Assembly (NCBI GenBank): GCA_963924555.1
Contig: OZ004593.1
Coordinates: 4,026,480-4,090,479, forward strand
Direction of reading: 5' to 3'
From: Crambe crambe
Taxonomy: Eukaryota > Porifera > Demospongiae > Poecilosclerida > Crambeidae
Length of the DNA: 64,000 nucleotides
The position numbers and the translations under genes are program-made. Numbering within the stretch: the stretch's first letter is position 1; every line of letters starts with the position of its first letter. Positions 50,001 to 61,800 of this stretch are shown here, piece after piece. Under the pieces are notes generated by a model. It saw only the letters and a program-made list of their open reading frames with translations. It searched no databases and had not been told where the DNA came from.

Positions 50001-52322
50001 ATGCAATAAACAATATAAATCAAGCTAAACACTGCCCTATGTAACTGCAAGATATTATGTGTGAATAGATTACCTGGCATAAGAGTAGCTCTTAGATTCT
50101 GTATGGTAAACTGCTATGTCATTTACAGGTGATTGAGGCTCTGGGACAACTTTCACATGATCTTCACTACCACCTGGACGGTGACTGTAATATGCCACCA
50201 CCAATCCTGACACAAAATCAACTTGAACTACAGAAGAATTTTCTTGGTTGACTGCAGGCAGAATGCAATGATTCTGATACTGTTTGGATGAAGTTAAACG
50301 CTCCTCACTCAATTCTTTATTCTGCATATCCGAAGAAGACTTACTCATACCTGTGATGAATTGTGTGGATGAAGAATCCTGTGTGTTCTGTCCCCCAAAA
50401 GTGATGGATTGGGGTTCTTCATACCAAGCTTTTATGGTGGGCAAAGCATTCAAAAGTTCCACACCAGTTGGCTGACTGCTCTCCAGCTTATTCAAGTGAA
50501 TAGCAACATTACTGGACTCTGCAAGTTGAGTAGATTGCTGAAAGTTCAAATACTTGGTCATATCAGGGTTGAAGTTGTCAATAGTCTTGTTCAGTTTCTC
50601 TAGCCTGCATGTCCAAGCATGGTTTCCTGCAAAAGGACCGGAAAACTTCACTGCATGTTGGTGAGGTAAAAGCCCCCCATACATCCTCTGATCATCCTCC
50701 TCTTCTTTGGATAAGTCTATGCTACTAAACTGTGACATTGTCTTTGAACCACTACGAGTTTTAGCAGGACCAGCAGAGAAGTCAGGGTGGTAGTGATGGG
50801 GGAAAGTCTGCATTGATTAGGAAATATGTACTCTACATAAATAATTGGGTGACAGTGGTGATGAAAAGCTTACAGGGTATGTGCTACATTGAGTGTAGTA
50901 GCATTAAAGTTACTGAAAGGACAAGGCCAATGAAGCAGTGTCCTATTATTACAGTGGTAGCATGCATGATTGGAATACTTACACTTCTAATGGTGGACAT
51001 TATTACCTGAAAATAATCAGGAAGATTAACTAGAAGGATATGGTTGGCTGATGAAGAGACAGCAAGATGGTTCAGGTCAGGAGAGACAGACAACCGTTCA
51101 AATTCAGACGTCGCAACCTCGGATAACAATTCATTGGAATCTATGAGATAAATTATACAGGTAAGTTGATTATGTTATAATATTCTAGCTCTTCACCTGG
51201 TTGCCTGCTGGAACTGTACTGGCAGTAATCCAGTAGATTAACCACACCAATGGAAGCACCATTACTAGCACTGTATATAACTACGTGCATATTCAAGGTC
51301 AAGGAAAACAATCAAATAATTATTACAAAAAAACTGCAACAAATGGTCCATTGACTGTAGAAAGGATACAAACTATACCATCAGTAGTTAGAGCAAAGAG
51401 AAGTGGACTGATAAACACATGGCTGACTACAGGACCAAGTGAGCTAGGTAAGTAAGTATCTTGATAGTGATGGAGGGAGACCTGAAGGACATAGCAGCCA
51501 ACCAAAGCAATACGACCGAACTCCTGATCCAAAAGAAAATGACACACCAAGAAAGAGTTGAAAAGAAGTAGGATTTTGCCACCTTCAGATCCCAGCATGG
51601 CAACTGACTCCAACACATCAGCTGCATTAATGAAGAGTATCAGCAGTGTTTTGTTTTGTTTTGTTTTTTTGGTTTTTTGATCTATATGAACTCACGAAAA
51701 TCTAGTTTCCTTAATTTAGTACTCAAGTCATCCTTCTTCAAACTGGCTAGCAACTCCACTTTCATAACTCCAGAAACCTCATCTTGTCGCATCTCGTTGT
51801 CAGCAAGTGAAGATGGAGGAGATCCACTACTAACACTGTACCAGTGACAGTCAAGGGTGGATGTCACTGCTACCAGCTCACTCTTGCATTCCAGCTTCAA
51901 TTCCACTACTGACTCTTGCTGTGTTCTGCAAGGCACTATCCATTGGGATCTGCATGAGATTTGTCATTTTAATACACAGACGAACACTCAAGGAGCATCC
52001 TGCTACGCCTATGGATTGATACCACCTCCACACGTGTATAAAATACGTGTAGAGTTATGATAAACACTCACTTGATGAGCTGATTGCTCTCTACCACAGC
52101 ACTCTGGCTATCATCAGAGAGAAGATGAATAATCAAGTGTCTAGACGCGTCTATAAAACTGATAAACTTTTCTCTAGGGCATATTTCTCTTTGCAGAGAG
52201 GAATGACTGCTTAAACTATCTATGAAAGGACGCCCTTTCTTCAAAATAATTGGTAAACACTCCATCTCTTGGTTCTCTGATGTTGCTGACGATGCATTAC
52301 CAATTTGGGGGCGTGGGGGCAT
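23046..52322 (-). CDS. SPG11: Spatacsin
   Basis: A large protein (about 2,400 residues in human) working with spastizin and AP-5 in lysosome reformation. Minus-strand exons run from a likely start at 52322 ([10 protein letters not shown]) to stop 23048-23046. Conserved stretches in order: [17 protein letters not shown] and [15 protein letters not shown] (49631-49780), [12 protein letters not shown] (about 41400), [20 protein letters not shown] (about 40650), [13 protein letters not shown] (35243 down), [20 protein letters not shown] (34074-33880), [15 protein letters not shown] (33800), [13 protein letters not shown] (33400), and the Spatacsin_C region [17 protein letters not shown] (24277 down), [20 protein letters not shown] (23690 down) and a final [11 protein letters not shown]. 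Nearly all introns are short; four long ones (about 42.0-49.6, 35.3-38.2, 30.0-33.3 and 38.9-40.2 kb) stand out, three of them housing opposite-strand genes. The first exon is the least certain: an upstream exon could exist beyond the poly-A tracts. Confidence 0.92.
30118..30240. repeat. Imperfect inverted repeat in spatacsin intron
   Basis: The phrase gggatatatggtctatttagaaacct on the left pairs imperfectly with aggtttctgaatagactgtaggttgtatacc on the right over about 120 bp, a MITE-like hairpin. Directly after it (about 30400-30610) a unit of roughly 100 bp containing ctgactgttggaagaagatg is repeated two to three times. Confidence 0.6.
31025..31138. repeat. Hairpin with 43-bp arms
   Basis: The left arm begins gttagaacacggtagt and the right arm ends actaccgtgttctaac; the arms match except for one indel, around a GC-rich centre containing gggctgcgccc. 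It is in the 3-kb spatacsin intron, a MITE-like foldback. Confidence 0.85.
32156..32293 (+). CDS. SMP-like miniprotein, 45 residues, nested in spatacsin intron
   Basis: ATG at 32156 in the context acagaATGG opens a 45-codon ORF ending in TGA 32291-32293. The product reads [20 protein letters not shown] then [20 protein letters not shown] and a lysine/asparagine tail. The pattern DA..RI.SAE....[14 protein letters not shown] resembles the short SMP (seed maturation protein) motif known from plant LEA proteins and from small fungal and bacterial proteins; the assignment is from memory and unverified. Transcription is opposite to spatacsin. An upstream noncoding exon is possible because cag precedes the start. 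A chance ORF with this composition and repeat-free sequence is unlikely but not excluded. Confidence 0.6.
   Translation: MDGKQSKTPMNEDAKRRIMSAEGNVQKGSFEARAQSAADKNANKK
34914..34957. repeat. (CATA)n microsatellite
   Basis: About ten tandem copies of a four-base unit in a spatacsin intron; the neighbouring apparent ORF starting with repeated MYVC is produced by it. Confidence 0.95.
36038..36300. promoter_or_regulatory. ATE1 upstream region: inverted repeat plus CpG-rich block
   Basis: An imperfect inverted repeat (cagtgttgccaggtt near 36040, aacctggcatgcaacactg near 36137) encloses two copies of aaaaatccacag. It is followed at 36150-36200 by a short run rich in CG dinucleotides (gcgcgctcaagcgcgcgcg), rare in this AT-rich window, 100-150 bp before the ATE1 start. 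A promoter is inferred. Confidence 0.45.
36304..37773 (+). CDS. ATE1: Arginyl-tRNA--protein transferase 1, intronless
   Basis: Transfers arginine from Arg-tRNA to N-terminal Asp/Glu (and oxidised Cys) of proteins, feeding the N-degron pathway. The ORF of 489 residues starts at ATG 36304 (the codon just before is GTG). The N-terminal Cys motif CGYCKSQ (residues about 20-26) and TCCPQY (about 62-67) are the conserved cysteines; [11 protein letters not shown] follows; the central region (about 95-215) is lysine/serine-rich and variable; the C-terminal catalytic half has [26 protein letters not shown] and [19 protein letters not shown]. All conserved blocks are intact and the length is close to human (518). 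It is a single exon on the + strand inside a 3-kb spatacsin intron (35.25-38.2 kb), suggesting an ancient retrocopy or an ancestrally intronless gene. Confidence 0.96.
   Translation: MEESSLVEYLYEEGGIRPYKCGYCKSQDKSYTQGVWGFKMTCQDYQSLVDRGFQRSGNFVYRPMMKTTCCPQYVIRMDAAKFKLSKSQKSSIKKFKRYLVEGKKSGEESVAQVDSKMDDMPSSSAEGALLDINQLPDHLNESSMKASKPKKVVKPGVGPDPNKPPCKKAKVIRKEMRAQKKLAKKQERAVSQDSSKPSPSSISTSQNHASCNSKQEVAKICQNLKDFLALPKDNECIHKFKTRLVRVEGFCDDFSDTYNESYQVFKKFQMTIHQETEEDSGEKQFNEFLVNSPLIYEEAGNGIEYGTYHQQYILDEKIFAVGVLDILPKGVLCEYLYYDPDYRFIAPGVITALQEISLTQELYQQNPEMQYYYMGFYVQSCPKMNYKSRYDSSALLCPETYTYISLEQCIPRLKASPYCRLASPDVKNPHEGCTPAEMDSIPVWADSTEMQYHTYRTLNGDHAKQSMEEYVELVGLEVAYRMKIYLSKM
38727..38753. repeat. Poly-A tract
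   Basis: About 26 A residues in a spatacsin intron. Confidence 0.9.
38930..40190. other. Spatacsin intron without recognised content
   Basis: Lies between exons encoding [13 protein letters not shown] (minus strand, about 38765-38925) and [14 protein letters not shown] (about 40190-40310). No ORF with family resemblance or clear repeat was seen. Confidence 0.4.
42585..43824 (+). CDS. Predicted secreted, GPI-anchored surface protein, paralogue 1
   Basis: Three exons, 42585-42657, 42746-43285 and 43583-43824, join in phase. Exon 1 is a clean signal peptide ([20 protein letters not shown], then TQAQ). Exon 2 encodes a cysteine-containing ectodomain of about 180 residues with [20 protein letters not shown], then [13 protein letters not shown] and [13 protein letters not shown]. 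Exon 3 is a Ser/Thr/Gly-rich stalk ending in a hydrophobic stretch ([14 protein letters not shown]) with no cytoplasmic tail, as in GPI precursors. The ectodomain pattern (beta-rich, paired hydrophobic strands, FC near the end) is loosely like a galactose-binding or discoidin fold; I do not recognise a named family. Homologous to the gene at 47723-48641. Nested, opposite strand, in the 7.6-kb spatacsin intron. Confidence 0.75.
43825..47722. other. Gap between the nested surface-protein genes
   Basis: No coding exon is recognised. Present are an inverted repeat at 43908-44011 (cacgatctttgca / tgcaaagatcgtg), a poly-G run near 45120, an imperfect tandem repeat at about 45548-45660 built on gtacttacatcctggcacac, and a dispersed repeat copy at the right end. 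Confidence 0.5.
46640..47480 (-). repeat. Dispersed repeat, copy B (inverted relative to 13.1-13.8 kb)
   Basis: The reverse complement of 46740-47465 follows copy A at 13110-13830 over most of its length. Copy B additionally has an inverted repeat at about 47350-47453 (ctaactattcctacttcact / agtgaagttggaatagttag), so one end forms a hairpin. The other end (46640-46700) has tctctaagtagggatggc, a phrase shared with several intronic repeats in the window. Confidence 0.75.
47723..48641 (+). CDS. Predicted secreted, GPI-anchored surface protein, paralogue 2
   Basis: Two exons, 47723-48299 and 48442-48641, join in phase 1. ATG 47723 gives a signal peptide ([20 protein letters not shown], then AEFC). 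The ectodomain contains [49 protein letters not shown] and [15 protein letters not shown], aligning block for block with paralogue 1. Exon 2 is a threonine-rich stalk ending [16 protein letters not shown], a short hydrophobic tail compatible with GPI attachment. AATAAA at 48715-48720 is a plausible poly(A) signal. In paralogue 1 the signal peptide is a separate exon, so an intron was lost or gained. Function unknown; a cell-surface recognition role would be inference only. Confidence 0.72.
48642..49630. other. Remainder of the 7.6-kb spatacsin intron
   Basis: Apart from the poly(A) signal at 48715-48720, a short repeat phrase (gccatccctatttg, about 49246) and a TTTG-rich run at 49308-49338, nothing is recognised. 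Confidence 0.5.
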
Positions 52323-52395
52323 GGGCTCGCGCCTGTTGGCGGGAACTTTAAAAGCTGTATTAGAGTAAAAAAAAAAAAAAAAAAAAAAAATCAAA

Positions 52396-52427
<32 letters not shown>

Positions 52428-52431
52428 AAGT
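52323..52431. other. 110-bp spacer with two poly-A tracts between KH fusion gene and spatacsin
   Basis: The stop of the upstream minus-strand gene is at 52432 and the predicted spatacsin start at 52322. In between lie two A runs (about 52366-52390 and 52397-52426 on the + strand, T runs in the sense direction). It must hold the 3' end of one gene and the 5' end of the next, unless spatacsin has an upstream exon. Confidence 0.6.
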
Positions 52432-55400
52432 TTAAGATATCACACAATTACTGCTTGTATCTTCTTCATTCAGGTCCATTCCTACTTTTACCATTAATGC
52501 TGCAATTCTAGCGTTAGTAACTATATCTTCACCAGAGAGCACCTGGGTGATAAGTTTTACTGCCTTTTCAATTTGCTCATCAGAGCCTGTAATAGTACAT
52601 TCTCGCTCAGGATTCAAAATTGCAGCCAAGCCTGTAGCTCTGTCAGATATTTTGATATCATGTACACCCGATAAAGATTTAATCATTTCTATGGTGACAC
52701 CATTCTTCCCTATGACTCGACCAACCATATCCAGTGGAATTTTGATAGTCTTGGACGTTGCTGTGTGCATAGAGACTTTATGCTCTAGTTTCTTCAATAT
52801 CATCAGTACAGCTTTCTTGCAGTTTTCTTCACTGCCCATGATTTCTCCAGCTCTCTTGCCGTTTGAAGCATAAGATCTGTCCTTGAGCTTGATAATAGTA
52901 TTAGTAGCTCTTTCCACTTCAAGGATATTCTTTCCTTCCTTCCCTATCACTAATCCAGCACGGTCTTCAGGGATATAAAACATTAATCGCCCACTGGGAC
53001 CATCTACCAAAAAGCAATACTTTTTATTCTGTCTTTAATCCCTGCTAGCTGTGAGCATACCTGATAATTTCTTTTTGCTCATTTCAGCATGTGTTTTACC
53101 ACAAAAATCATGAATTTGTCCATTTTCAACACATTTAGGCTTAGAGCAACCTGGATACTTGCACTGCTCCTCTATACTTGGTACATTTTGAGGTGTATCT
53201 GAAGTAAATTGCATATCAACCCACACATACATAACTAGGCTAGATTATGGAATAATGGGGCACATTTTGCAAACTTGAAAACACTACACTATCTAGGTGC
53301 TACACTGTGATAGTGCTGACTCACCACTTGTACTCAACTCAGCAAAAAATTGTTGAAATAGTTGATTCTCATCATATGGGACACTTTTACTTGCTGCTGA
53401 TGTTGAATCAAGAGTCGAAGAGGTAGATGTTGAAGAGTCATCTACCAAAGTTTCTGACTCTGTAGACTTTACTTCAGCAGGTAAAAACCGATCATCACGT
53501 TTCAGTTTCTCGTATGGGAGAAATAAGCCGCAACCACGATCAGATGTAAAGTAACTTGTGCCACCAAAGTCACCACAACCACCTCCAGGAACGATTTTTT
53601 CCTAAGTAAGGAACAAATACAATAACATACACTTGGCAGAAAAATTCACCTCACAAATTCAATGCCAGCGATGAGCTGGTTCTTCAATTCTCCCAGCCAC
53701 TTGACAACACCATAACCTAAAGAGTCCACCATCACCATGTCACCTTCTTCAATGGGTTTTTCACCCGTGTTATCAGATGAAAATCTTGCTAGTCTCTTTA
53801 TCCTGATTTTTCGGCGTTTTTCATCTTCAGGGCTCAGCTGGGGTATTAGCTTTGTTCTGGCCTCATCTGGTTCAACATCTCTAGTATCTTCTTCTGCAGT
53901 ATCTAGTAGTTTAGGGGGTGGAGGTGGTAATTCAGACTCTTGAATAAGAAGATAACAGAAGTGAAATGATCTTATTCTTAAAAGTATTTTCAACATTCAC
54001 CTGGAAGTTTAAGGCATGGGGGAGGTGGTTCAGACTCTTGAATGGGGTATCCATGTCCACCTATCAATAATCATAAAGTGAAATAGACTCATTCTAAATC
54101 ATGATAAAAATTCTACCTCGATGTTCAGTGGGTAGAGATATTTGAGACACTTGAATAGGACGACTGGCACCTATTGATAATAATTATGCAAGAGTTTTCT
54201 GTCAGTTAATTACATTACCTATATTTTCAACATATCCATCCCTTTCCATAGACTGAAGTATATCAGTAAGGTTTTCTTTCATCAAACCATTCACCAAAAC
54301 CTGAGGAGTTGCTTCCAATGGCCCCTCAGTCCTCTCCCAATGGATAAACAGCTGTGCAATTTGTTCATTCAGACTCAACCGGTTGTCGTACTCAATTGCT
54401 GCTATTTCAGTAGTGGTTAGACTGAGACCCCTAGCTAGTGACTTCCATTCATGGCCAATCTGGTTTTTTACCGTTTTAATCACGTCGGAAAGTTTGATGT
54501 CTTTCTTGACTGCAGTTGAAAAACAATTATAATGTAGCATTTATCGTCTCCTTTATGCAAGCATCGTCTATTTGAGTAGCACAACCAAGATAGTCTCACA
54601 TCCATTTTTGCCCCCACACAGAGGGAAAGGGTCTGGCACAATCCCCATAAGAATTTCAAGATCAGTGAGTAAGTTTGAAGTTAGTTTTTCTTGTGGTCTT
54701 GTAAAATCAGCAGAGTGTGTAGGGCTGCTAATTACCAACAGAGTAACCAAAGCACTAGTCTCGCGTTGTCAGACCCTTTCCCGTTTTCTGGCACGAGGAG
54801 GGAAAGGGTCTGGCCCACTGACGTTAGGCGTTTTGTTCTGGCAGGATATAGGGTAATTGCGCAATTGCATCACATGCACTTAATGAGATTCATTGACTAC
54901 CGGGCCACCCTGCATCAGGTGGAGCTCAGAACTTAATGCCTAACGTCAGTGGGCCAGACCCTTTCCCTCCTCGCGCCAAAAAATGGGAAAGGGTCTAGCT
55001 ACGCGAGACTACTTTAGACTGGCTTCAGAGAGAGATAAAGCATAAATGCTTATGTGTGTAAAATAAGATCTTGAAACTCTTAGTAATCTTGAAGCAAGAT
55101 TGAAATATATAACTTCAGTATCTGGATCAATATGGATCCTGCAGGGGCAAGCGCAGCGAGTGTTAGGTGTACGAGACATACTATTCACACACAATTGTGA
55201 CTCCAATATTTGCCCAGCTTGCAGTGTGCGCCCCAAAGGGCTCCCTAAGGCAGCCAAAGAGAGTTATAATAGTAGAGTGGGGCTGTTTTGTAGATACTAA
55301 TTGTAATATAAAGGAAGATTTTGTGGATTTTTTTAGTGTAGAAAGAACTACTGGTGAAATAATAGCTTCGAAACTTAAAAAGAAATATTAGCAAGATGTA

Positions 55401-55739
55401 ATCTTGATCTTCAGGACTGTCGAGGGTTCATCCATATTGCACCCCACTTTACCTTACCCTGGCCATAGATACTACCTATGCCCTGACCTAGTTCTGATTT
55501 CAAGAGCCAAGTATTCATATCTTTCTGTTTATGTGTGTGTGGGAAGGGTTTGGTTTGCGAGACCTAGTCCAGATGGAGCTTATGGGGATGCCAGACACTT
55601 AGAGGGGGACTAGACTAGGGATAGAGGGCATGCCGATGTTAATTCAGAAGCCTTAACTAAGTCAATTGGTGTAAGCTATGATTACAATATCTACTGGGGA
55701 CTTACCTTTCCAATCATGGCCTCGGGCTTCCATAGCCAT
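52432..55739 (-). CDS. Death domain - CAP-Gly - Cys/His cluster - KH - KH protein with CaaX end
   Basis: The exons join in phase throughout. Exon 1 (55739-55706) MAMEARGHDWK; exon 2 (54509-54219) a death domain with IGHEWKSLARGLSLTTTEIA and IEYDN; short exons near 54170-54115, 54062-54001 and 53945 with proline-rich text (ESEPPPPCLKLP, SELPPPPPKLL); a CAP-Gly domain GDMVMVDSLGYGVVKWLGEL then AGIEF|EKIVPGGG and GGTSYFTSDRGCGLFLPYEK (donor is GTGAGG at 53655, which restores the fold); a Ser/Thr-rich linker; CKYPGCSKPKCV..HDFCGKTHA (Cys/His cluster, likely zinc); then one exon (53009-52432) with two KH domains carrying canonical GKEG and GKNG loops. The protein ends CVIS, a CaaX prenylation box. 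Death domains build signalling assemblies, CAP-Gly binds microtubule ends or EEY/F tails, KH binds single-stranded RNA. I know no characterised protein with this combination. Confidence 0.85.
54756..55012. repeat. MITE-like inverted repeat in intron 1 of the death-domain gene
   Basis: Left arm 54756-54830 (tagtctcgcg..., two copies of the agaccctttccc motif or its complement, ...gacgttaggc) and right arm 54937-55012 (...gcctaacgtc...acgcgagact) are reverse complements with minor indels. Another copy of gagggaaagggtctggc lies at about 54621. Confidence 0.85.
55167..55391 (+). pseudogene. Probable hAT-type transposase relic
   Basis: The reading frame ends with KEDFVDFFSVERTTGEIIAS, resembling the segment after DUF4371/TTF-type regions of hAT-family transposases, where an acidic EDF.GF followed by TTGE or SGE is common. 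A neighbouring frame supplies ESYNSRVGLFCRY just upstream, so at least one frameshift is present. Embedded in intron 1 of the death-domain gene. Confidence 0.35.
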
Positions 55740-58800: not shown

Positions 58801-61800
58801 CAAAAATTCGGATATGCGAAATCATGAATATCATTAAGTACAATGTATATCTTTTAAATGCAGGAAGTGTCAGGATGACTTGTTCATCTTCAACCCTGCC
58901 AGTTTGGCACCCTCCAGAGCCTTCCAGACCTCACCCCCTTGTCTTGAAAGGCCAAACACAGTGACTTTGACATCACAGACTCTATATCCATGCCTCATAC
59001 TGGTCCCTGCTCTGGAATATGGCAGGGATGTCACTGTCCTGTAATTAAAACTTATTTTTATACCTGTAGGTATACACTTATTGTTATAATTTACCCAGAT
59101 GCCTGCAAACCACTACTTAGTAGTGGAGACAAATAAACAGCAGCTTCTCTAGCCAGATTGCCAAGCTTTCTTGCTGAACCAGAACCTGTAACCCAGATTG
59201 AAATACAGTTGCTGTCCCACTCATTATCTGGCTCCAGCTGGAAGTTCAGCAGATCTCCAACAGCAATCTCTGATGTTTCCACTTCATAGAACTTTATGCC
59301 TCTTGCCTGGCAGGAGAAAGATGCTAGCTCACATGTCATCATCAATGCAGCTGCTAATCCAATGTTTAAAAAATGATAATCGGTAAAGAATGGCTATAGG
59401 TTGCAAAATAATTCAGTGTGTGGAAAATGTACTTCCTAGAGTCCTTTGCTTGAGGTTATGGAACCGCTTCTTGCATGCTAGATCTCTTACTCCCTTTAAA
59501 ACCATAAGAGATGTAGGAGTTGCCTCTTCTTGCTTTTCATACCATTTCAGACACTCTCCTAGCATATCTGCAGCTTGGCTACTTGTAATGCTACTCTCTG
59601 TCGAAACATCCTCATCGTCTTCTTCGTCAGAGGATTCTGGTTGCGCTGTTTGTGAGACTTGTTGAACTATCTCTTCATCAGTGGCTAACTGATATCCAGG
59701 ATCTTCTGAATCCACAGACATCCACTGTGCTATCTCTTCAGAAGTGAGAGTGCCATCCAACTGCTGCATGAGCTGTGCACACGTCTCACCAGGTTGACTT
59801 CCATCTTCAGAAGACTGGTCAGAACCTTCAGGTAGGCTGCCTGGTGAGGGTACAGTAGCTAAGAGTTTATACCAAGATTTACACAGGGTAGAAGATGGAA
59901 TATCCTCCCAGGCGTCAGCGACCATATAGACAACGTGTTTGATGTTTATAGTCTTTACGAAAGTAACCATCGACTGACCTTCTCCATCCACCATCAGCAG
60001 CTTCCGCAACAATGACTTCCTGTATCGCCGTTTCATAGCTTCCAGCACACCTTGATCCATTGGTTGAATCAGAGCTGTTGTATTTGCAGGTAAAAACATC
60101 ATAGTAATCTTCTTATCCTTGCTAACCAGCACAGTTTCACTTGGGTGTGAAGGGGCATTGTCCATCAACAAGAGAGCCTTAGGCTCTAAACCCTTATCGT
60201 TTAGGTGCTTGGTCACTGCGGGAACAAACTCAGCTTCAAACCACTTCTTAAAAATGTCGGAATCCATCCAAGCATTGCGTTGTGAGTAATATTTCACAGG
60301 TAGTGCACTTTTATTCAAGTTTTTGAAACACCGAGGGTTTAAAGACTTGTGTATTAAAACCAGAGGTAACTTATGACTTCCACTAGCATTAGAACATGCC
60401 ATGATAGTGACCCTATCTTTCTGCTTCTTCATACCTTTGGCTCCTTTTTCTGCTCTAGCAGCAAGCGTCTTTGTTGGTAGCATCTTATAACACAAACCAG
60501 TTTCATCACAATTGTATACTTGTTCAAGTGTCAGCGATTCTTTTTCCATTATCTCCTGCAGCCTCTTCTTGAAAGTAGCAGTAGCACTTTCATTGGATGA
60601 CAGCTGCTCACCTTGAAGAGAAAGCTGATGGATTCCATGCCGTTTACAAAATCGCCACAGCCATCCTGCACTAGCATTGAATGATGGCGGGTCTGCTTCT
60701 CCCTCATGTAGCATATTGTGAAATTCCAAAGCCTTTTCTTTCAGTAATGGTCCACTGATAGGAGTATCTTGTCCTCGTTTCTGAGTGAACCAAAGGTAAA
60801 GAGCAGCTTCTACTTGTTCATCTTTTGCAAGGCGCATGATTTTGCGGCTGGAACTCATCCCCTGATCTTCCAGACTGCTAGCAAAGTCTTTAATCTTGGC
60901 TTCATTTTTCTTTAGATCACATACTGTGGCCTTTCCAACACCATATTCCTCTGCAAGACTTCTTTGCGTGCATCCATTGGCCATTTTATCGAGAATAGCC
61001 AGCTTTGCCTTCATTGTTAGAACCACTCGCTTCCTTTTCAGGCTTTTGGTCGCCATTCTCGATCAGCTAGCTACTCAGATCTATCAGATCAGCTAGCTGC
61101 AGCTGCAATTCCAAAGAGCAGCTTGGTGCGCATGCGCGGGTACAATAACATGATAGGTTATTATAATGACGATCATTACCCAGTCAACTTCAATTCTCTG
61201 TTTGGATAATCCGGGCGTTCGGATGAACGAGGGTCCACTGTACACAGCTGTGGACAGTGCCTCAACCCAATTTTCAGCATTGAACATACCATCTTCAAGG
61301 TCATTCATTTTGCGACTCCGTTCTGTTCTGGTGTCTTTGGTATTAGTGCATTCATGGTGTACTCCCTCATATGTGAGAAAATTTCAAAGATGTCCACCAT
61401 TGTCGGTATGGAGCACTTTTAATTACTTCCCACTTTCGAGAGCTTTTTTCCATACTTGAACACTTAACTCTTGTTCTTCAGGACATATATCCATGTGCAA
61501 TCATCAATGAAGGTAATATTTTTCCCTGCCCATTCATCTTGCTGCAGATATCACTATGAACAAGATCGCTGCTCGCTTCGATTGACTGAGTTGAAATAGA
61601 GTCTTCTTGTGTTTGCCTTCGATACAGGTTTCACAGAAATCAAGACCCTTTACCAGGCTGTCCTGAATGCGCTTCTGCAGATTTGCATACATAGATGTGC
61701 CACACGCTTTCTTTTGATTCTTGTCGTGAAAGGTTTGCCTGCTTTGCAATTCAGATAATCACACCTGGTTCCTTAGCGATTTCGAATTTGGGATCTGACA

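Follow-up and report, generated by a model that had tools for sequence, protein, structure and literature searches.

The DNA considered here is a 64,000-nucleotide stretch (the window) of the genome of the sponge Crambe crambe, contig OZ004593.1 (C16:4026480-4090479); the genome searched comprised 143,139,886 bases in 119 contigs. On the minus strand of the window, at 55739-52432, lies a predicted gene of eight exons whose splicing gives a single open frame of 569 amino acids (1710 nt), with its sole stop at the end. The predicted protein combines a death domain, a CAP-Gly domain, a Cys/His cluster, two KH domains, and a C-terminal CaaX box (Table 1). The splice sites were chosen by hand from the sequence, with both strands of 52432-55739 read. 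All seven introns are of the GT-AG type, and their phases are 1,1,1,1,0,1,1. The exon 5 donor TTT/GTGAGG preserves the frame across the intron that divides CAP-Gly; a donor 5 nt further on (GTGAG/GTGAAT) breaks it and was discarded. Pfam analysis of the spliced product found KH_1 (1.2e-27, two stretches), Death (7.7e-11, residues 27-101), and CAP_GLY (4.5e-9, residues 212-274), each exceeding the curated cut-off. The same exons were recovered by six-frame searches of the genome (Death at C16:4080720-4080944, KH at C16:4079022-4079459), while the gene's own CAP-Gly is missing from the exon-wise CAP_GLY list because an intron splits the domain. A first-pass annotation, made from the letters alone, had placed the death, CAP-Gly, Cys/His, and KH modules in one protein joined through exon phases, had proposed this domain search, and had named an internal stop as grounds for giving up the model. 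All of these modules were found where it had put them, on the minus strand, with matching phases and no internal stop; the CaaX box had been missed.

Table 1. Predicted parts of the gene, in window coordinates.
Feature	Position	Strand	Basis
Exon 1, start codon, MAMEARGHDWK, donor G/gtaagt, phase 1	55706..55739	-	spliced model; 5' end predicted
Intron 1, 1.2 kb, contains foldback element	54510..55705	-	
Exon 2, death domain (Pfam match 54241-54465)	54219..54509	-	Pfam, spliced model
Exon 3, short linker, phase 1-1	54117..54170	-	splice sites from sequence alone
Exon 4, proline-rich linker, phase 1-1	54001..54060	-	splice sites from sequence alone
Exon 5, proline-rich/acidic linker, KRRKIRIKR, CAP-Gly N-terminal half from ~53744	53655..53938	-	
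Exon 6, CAP-Gly C-terminal half to ~53503, then Ser/Thr-rich linker	53325..53601	-	
Exon 7, C-x4-C-x14-C-x3-H cluster, residues 346-370, ~53089-53163	53061..53198	-	
Exon 8, KH1 52795-52980, KH2 52543-52752, C-terminal tail, stop	52432..53003	-	
CVIS CaaX (prenylation-type) box at C-terminus	52435..52446	-	sequence

As far as the sequence allows a prediction, the eight exons very probably form one gene covered by one mRNA. The alternative is that two adjoining genes, Death-CAP-Gly and zinc-KH, share a frame by chance. An ATG in intron 6 offers an in-frame start for the zinc exon, translation past the exon 6 donor would end at a stop 10 codons on, and a partial copy of the gene on contig 21 has the zinc and KH exons with no death exon, which would all suit two genes. 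However, the 126-bp gap is of intron size, has GT-AG ends, and agrees in phase, and the copy keeps the exon 7 acceptor and has no in-frame ATG before its zinc exon. The copy also includes the tail of exon 5 together with exon 6, which places both parts in a single duplicated block. A pair of genes is therefore quite improbable. Another alternative in-frame ATG lies directly upstream of the death exon, in an open reading frame (ORF) that extends to 54540.

The copy (C21:1079046-1080404, or L025:3046-4404) duplicates window positions 52273-53683 in two pieces. Identity to the gene is 96.4% in exon 7 and 96.3% in exon 8, without indels, and 84.5% in exon 6, where 19 bases are missing. Intron 6 reaches 59.6% over the 57 of its 126 bases that can be aligned, and the 3' flank 88.1%. 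Introns 5 and 7 are also similar (94.3 and 94.7%), and high identity by itself is therefore no proof of coding constraint. The KH exon differs from the copy by 11 nonsynonymous and 10 synonymous changes (dN/dS 0.31; binomial P 0.009); the zinc exon, with four and one, respectively, has too few to judge. A death domain (C21:1073118) is situated ~6 kb from the KH exons of the copy. Two stretches of contig 21, L027:7535-8545 and L025:3046-4404, are separate repeats of parts of window 51458-53683; they sit in a region rich in death domains and are apparently split by other sequence. The L027 fragment is a further relative, and contig 12 holds another, diverged one.

The death domain of exon 2 has a true death fold, with both the Pfam match (PF00531) and the helical death fold present. 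Its best sequence match in PDB is THOC1 (1.3e-10, 44.6 bits; 33-37% identity), and the best family other than THOC1 is RIPK1 (1.6e-5, 28.2 bits). In the reverse direction, the human THOC1 death domain picks exon 2 as the best (5.9e-9; next 1.6e-5) among the 97 genome matches listed at E <= 1. These results would suit a single gene encoding a nuclear ribonucleoprotein factor, in which a THOC1-like death domain and the KH pair act in mRNA processing or export and have no apoptotic or immune role. It is also favored by the basic stretch KRRKIRIKR (~53793-53819), which we take to resemble a nuclear localization signal (NLS), and by a head-to-head neighboring gene that is RRM-like (19.0 bits, under the Pfam cut-off of 20.7). 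However, THOC1 also came first among death domains for two of the three control death domains, two of the controls having been leading entries in the Pfam and THOC1 lists, which biases them toward THOC1, and the third being a 61-residue shortened piece. In the structural ranking, FADD and RIPK1 are nearest and THOC1 stands at rank 18. Because of the controls and of this rank, the link to THOC1 is retained as a sequence resemblance only, and THOC1 identity was rejected. The THOC1 body domain (efThoc1, PF11957) gave no match in the Pfam scan of the spliced protein. A nuclear factor of this kind seems rather unlikely.

By sequence, the CAP-Gly domain is of the CYLD CAP-Gly3 type, here outside CYLD. 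Its three top PDB matches are CYLD (5.7e-7, 7.1e-7, and 7.6e-7), followed by CLIP-170 (Restin) at 1.9e-5; the matched CYLD chains can be assigned to CAP-Gly3 from entry 1IXD and from the construct lengths given in PMC8511506. In a comparison set of 17 domains (16 from the C. crambe genome and one human), four CYLD CAP-Gly3 sequences rank at the top by pairwise Z (15.3-19.1; next 12.5), and the tree joins the domain to these four. The domain is interrupted by a phase-0 intron directly behind AGIEF, and three CYLD-like loci of the same genome have theirs behind AGIE[ML]; in CYLD-like CAP-Gly1 and in kinase genes the phase-0 donor is about one residue further on. The predicted intron position indicates the CYLD-type group, not CAP-Gly3 alone. 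Among the three loci, L042 and L043 contain catalytic-domain sequence, and L048 is named by its CAP-Gly sequence only. Both L042 and L043 carry NSCYLDATVFGLFAL, which we take to be typical of the CYLD catalytic domain. CYLD is apparently expanded in this genome, with CYLD-type CAP-Gly exons at L042, L043, L046, and L048 (contig 21, 3.7-5.05 Mb). Another unusual CAP-Gly architecture occurs at L051 (contig 13) and L052 (contig 6), where a CAP-Gly is fused, as judged by eye, to an apparent protein kinase with a coiled coil.

The assignment bears on the function that the first-pass annotation had suggested for this domain, namely binding to microtubule plus ends or EEY/F-type tails, and on the resulting idea of a plus-end protein that carries RNA. 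A Pfam CAP_GLY match agrees with such a role. However, GKNDG, described as the tubulin-binding motif of CAP-Gly domains in PMC3806363, is replaced in this domain by GGGCG at the corresponding loop of the alignment, and the domain groups with CYLD CAP-Gly3 and apart from those of CLIP type. On these two grounds, the plus-end role was rejected as highly improbable. Thus, the joining of the modules in one predicted protein stands, and the microtubule part of the earlier reading falls.

CYLD CAP-Gly3 binds ubiquitin, at its Ile44 patch, and NEMO. The ubiquitin contacts named in PMC8511506 are Leu475, Val487, Arg488, Glu507, and Phe545; the residues aligned with them here are M, V, K, E, and F, that is, identical or conservative, when the chain numbering of 7owc_B (467-565) is followed and the arginine is taken as 489 against the printed 488. 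At Leu475, the other CAP-Gly domains compared there have Pro or Arg, with the exception of KIF13b (Phe), which did not bind (PMC8511506). In the present alignment, the same column holds M in this gene; the three CYLD-like CAP-Gly3 domains have L, L, and F, and of the eight CLIP-type domains seven have R and one has Q.

The KH pair is of type I, with two KH_1 stretches from residues 396 and 474 and intact GKEG and GKNG loops. Its best PDB matches are IGF2BP1 (1.3e-11) and NOVA-1 (1.2e-9); in NCBIfam, just weak matches below the cut-off were obtained, to KH-bearing families and the like. The Cys/His cluster ahead of it consists of C346, C351, C366, and H370, from which we infer metal binding; it matched no Pfam family and no PDB entry better than E 0.1. 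Its nearest relatives in the same genome are repeats in the contig-5 stretch L054 (four matches, one on the opposite strand). There, at L054:1564-4065, C-x4-C...C-x3-H repeats lie next to an ORF that matches the PARP catalytic domain (5.4e-9), possibly a zinc-cluster PARP. The CVIS tail of the protein is kept in the contig-21 copy. An ending of the strict form C[VIL][VIL][SMQAC] occurs in two of 1241 distinct ORF C-termini, those of the gene and of the copy, and a looser CaaX form in 10 of them, the sample being six-frame ORFs of at least 60 amino acids in the DNA examined, mostly surely not genes.

Some features of the surroundings deserve mention. The RRM-like neighbor runs on the plus strand from 55825 (ATG by sequence reading), so that 85 bp separate the two start codons, and a two-way promoter between the genes is likely. 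The foldback element of intron 1 has arms of 85 nt each (54756-54840 and 54927-55011) that are 89% complementary. A minus-strand frame of 549 codons at 59413-61062 encodes a transposase (DDE_1, 8.6e-48, with HTH_Tnp_Tc5 and CENP-B_N), which we presume to be pogo/Tigger-like.

The architecture appears to be singular within the genome. Searches gave at least 150 scored death-domain matches (965 candidates), at least 26 for CAP_GLY, and at least 44 for KH_1, all lower bounds; exon-split domains, such as the CAP-Gly of this very gene, are missed. Among the matches listed, as judged by eye, this is the only locus with a death domain within a few kb of a CAP-Gly and a KH pair, and no second locus of the same architecture was seen. 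When the full-length protein was compared with ~5.8 billion proteins, none of the 7999 candidates scored was a homologue at E 1e-3. For the zinc-KH part, 1807 candidates yielded one match at E 0.01, a four-KH protein encoded on a contig of 1.6 kb; it had no Death or CAP-Gly match, and the homology is therefore of KH only. Scans of genome_contigs and viral_contigs gave 18 and 3 pattern matches, with none confirmed. These protein and contig collections are described as prokaryotic, viral, and metagenomic and say nothing about sponges. Among the open-licence PubMed Central papers listed, judged by title and the start of the abstract, none describes the combination of death domain, CAP-Gly, and KH. 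The parts are known one by one; in these papers nothing was found that joins them with a CaaX tail and a CYLD CAP-Gly3-type domain in a protein other than CYLD.

Such a gene might simply be a product of domain shuffling, expressed without an integrated function or serving as a scaffold unrelated to RNA sensing. The genome does mix these domains (by eye, CAP-Gly beside apparent kinases at L051 and L052), it holds several CYLD-like loci and the many death-domain matches noted above, and the sole close relatives found are decayed partial copies. However, the gene keeps both KH loops and its CaaX box intact, conservative residues occupy the main CAP-Gly contact positions, and the KH exon shows fewer amino-acid changes against the copy than neutral drift predicts. 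A gene with no joint function is thus considered unlikely.

The interpretation put forward here, tentatively, is that of a membrane-anchored RNA-binding adaptor that couples RNA to a death-fold assembly and to ubiquitin/NEMO signaling. What the sequence itself shows is the set of domains, the open spliced frame, the CAP-Gly grouping, and the CaaX box. The CVIS tail would be farnesylated, holding the protein on internal membranes, where the KH pair would bind RNA. Once clustered on RNA, the protein may assemble through its death domain with certain of the numerous other death-domain proteins that the genome encodes, and the CAP-Gly domain may tie this assembly to ubiquitin chains or to a NEMO/IKK-type partner. 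RNA would thereby be linked, at a membrane, to innate or cell-death signaling. This full mechanism is possible rather than probable. A more specific version, a farnesylated membrane RNA sensor-adaptor in which, in one chain, KH reads RNA, the CYLD-derived CAP-Gly reads ubiquitin, and the death domain nucleates assembly, is harder to credit and must be called unlikely.

Several observations weigh against the adaptor. The NLS-like stretch points to the nucleus, which conflicts with a place on internal membranes unless these are the nuclear envelope. The contig-21 copy lacks the exon for the death domain and the greater part of exon 5, and its exon 6 has frame-breaking changes and a donor in which GT reads AT; thus, the KH part is able to survive on its own. 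The support of the CAP-Gly tree, 92/88, is under the program's own 95/80 threshold. The contacts vary even among the three CYLD-like loci, which have D, D, and D in the Glu507 column and Y, Y, and N in the Phe545 column. A sixth ubiquitin contact, Val551, perhaps stabilized by crystal contacts according to the authors (PMC8511506), aligns with K. The architecture was not found in another genome of the collections searched, and conservation is therefore unusable as evidence.

If the gene is real and its product a single chain, an animal protein has fused the binding of RNA, the reading of ubiquitin, and the assembly of a death fold, giving a compact, testable link from RNA recognition to innate signaling outside the known sensor families. 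In the sensor-adaptor version, one protein of an early-branching animal would do what vertebrates split between RNA-binding antiviral effectors such as ZAP-L and separate death-fold adaptors. Ubiquitin-binding CAP-Gly may also exist beyond CYLD; in PMC8511506, it is seemingly restricted to CYLD among the domains tested.

Each module can be compared with a known system. With IGF2BP, NOVA, and KSRP, the protein shares type I tandem KH domains (IGF2BP1 being the best PDB match), but it has two KH only, fused to signaling domains. THOC1 has the closest death domain by sequence, yet the protein lacks the THOC1 body and has KH domains, and its death domain is N-terminal whereas that of THOC1 is C-terminal. 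The likeness to CYLD lies in the CAP-Gly3 grouping, the phase-0 intron position shared with the CYLD-like loci, and the five main ubiquitin-contact positions. However, CYLD has three CAP-Gly domains as well as a USP catalytic domain, while the Pfam scan found one CAP_GLY and no USP here, and death, zinc, and KH domains are added. ZAP (PARP13) carries CCCH zinc fingers; zf-CCCH and PARP domains gave no match in the Pfam scan of the spliced protein. According to PMC8568172, ZAP-L ends in an identical CVIS, which is farnesylated and required for antiviral activity, and OAS1 p46 is prenylated; both are antiviral RNA-recognizing proteins with a C-terminal CaaX. Unlike these, the sponge protein would use KH domains for RNA, has no PARP domain, and adds a death domain and CAP-Gly; the CaaX likeness is likely convergent. 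MAVS-type adaptors resemble the proposed protein, as a membrane-anchored death-fold protein, in mode of action only, and no homology is claimed: MAVS combines a CARD with a transmembrane tail and lacks KH domains, in contrast to the death domain, CaaX box, and KH pair of the sponge gene.
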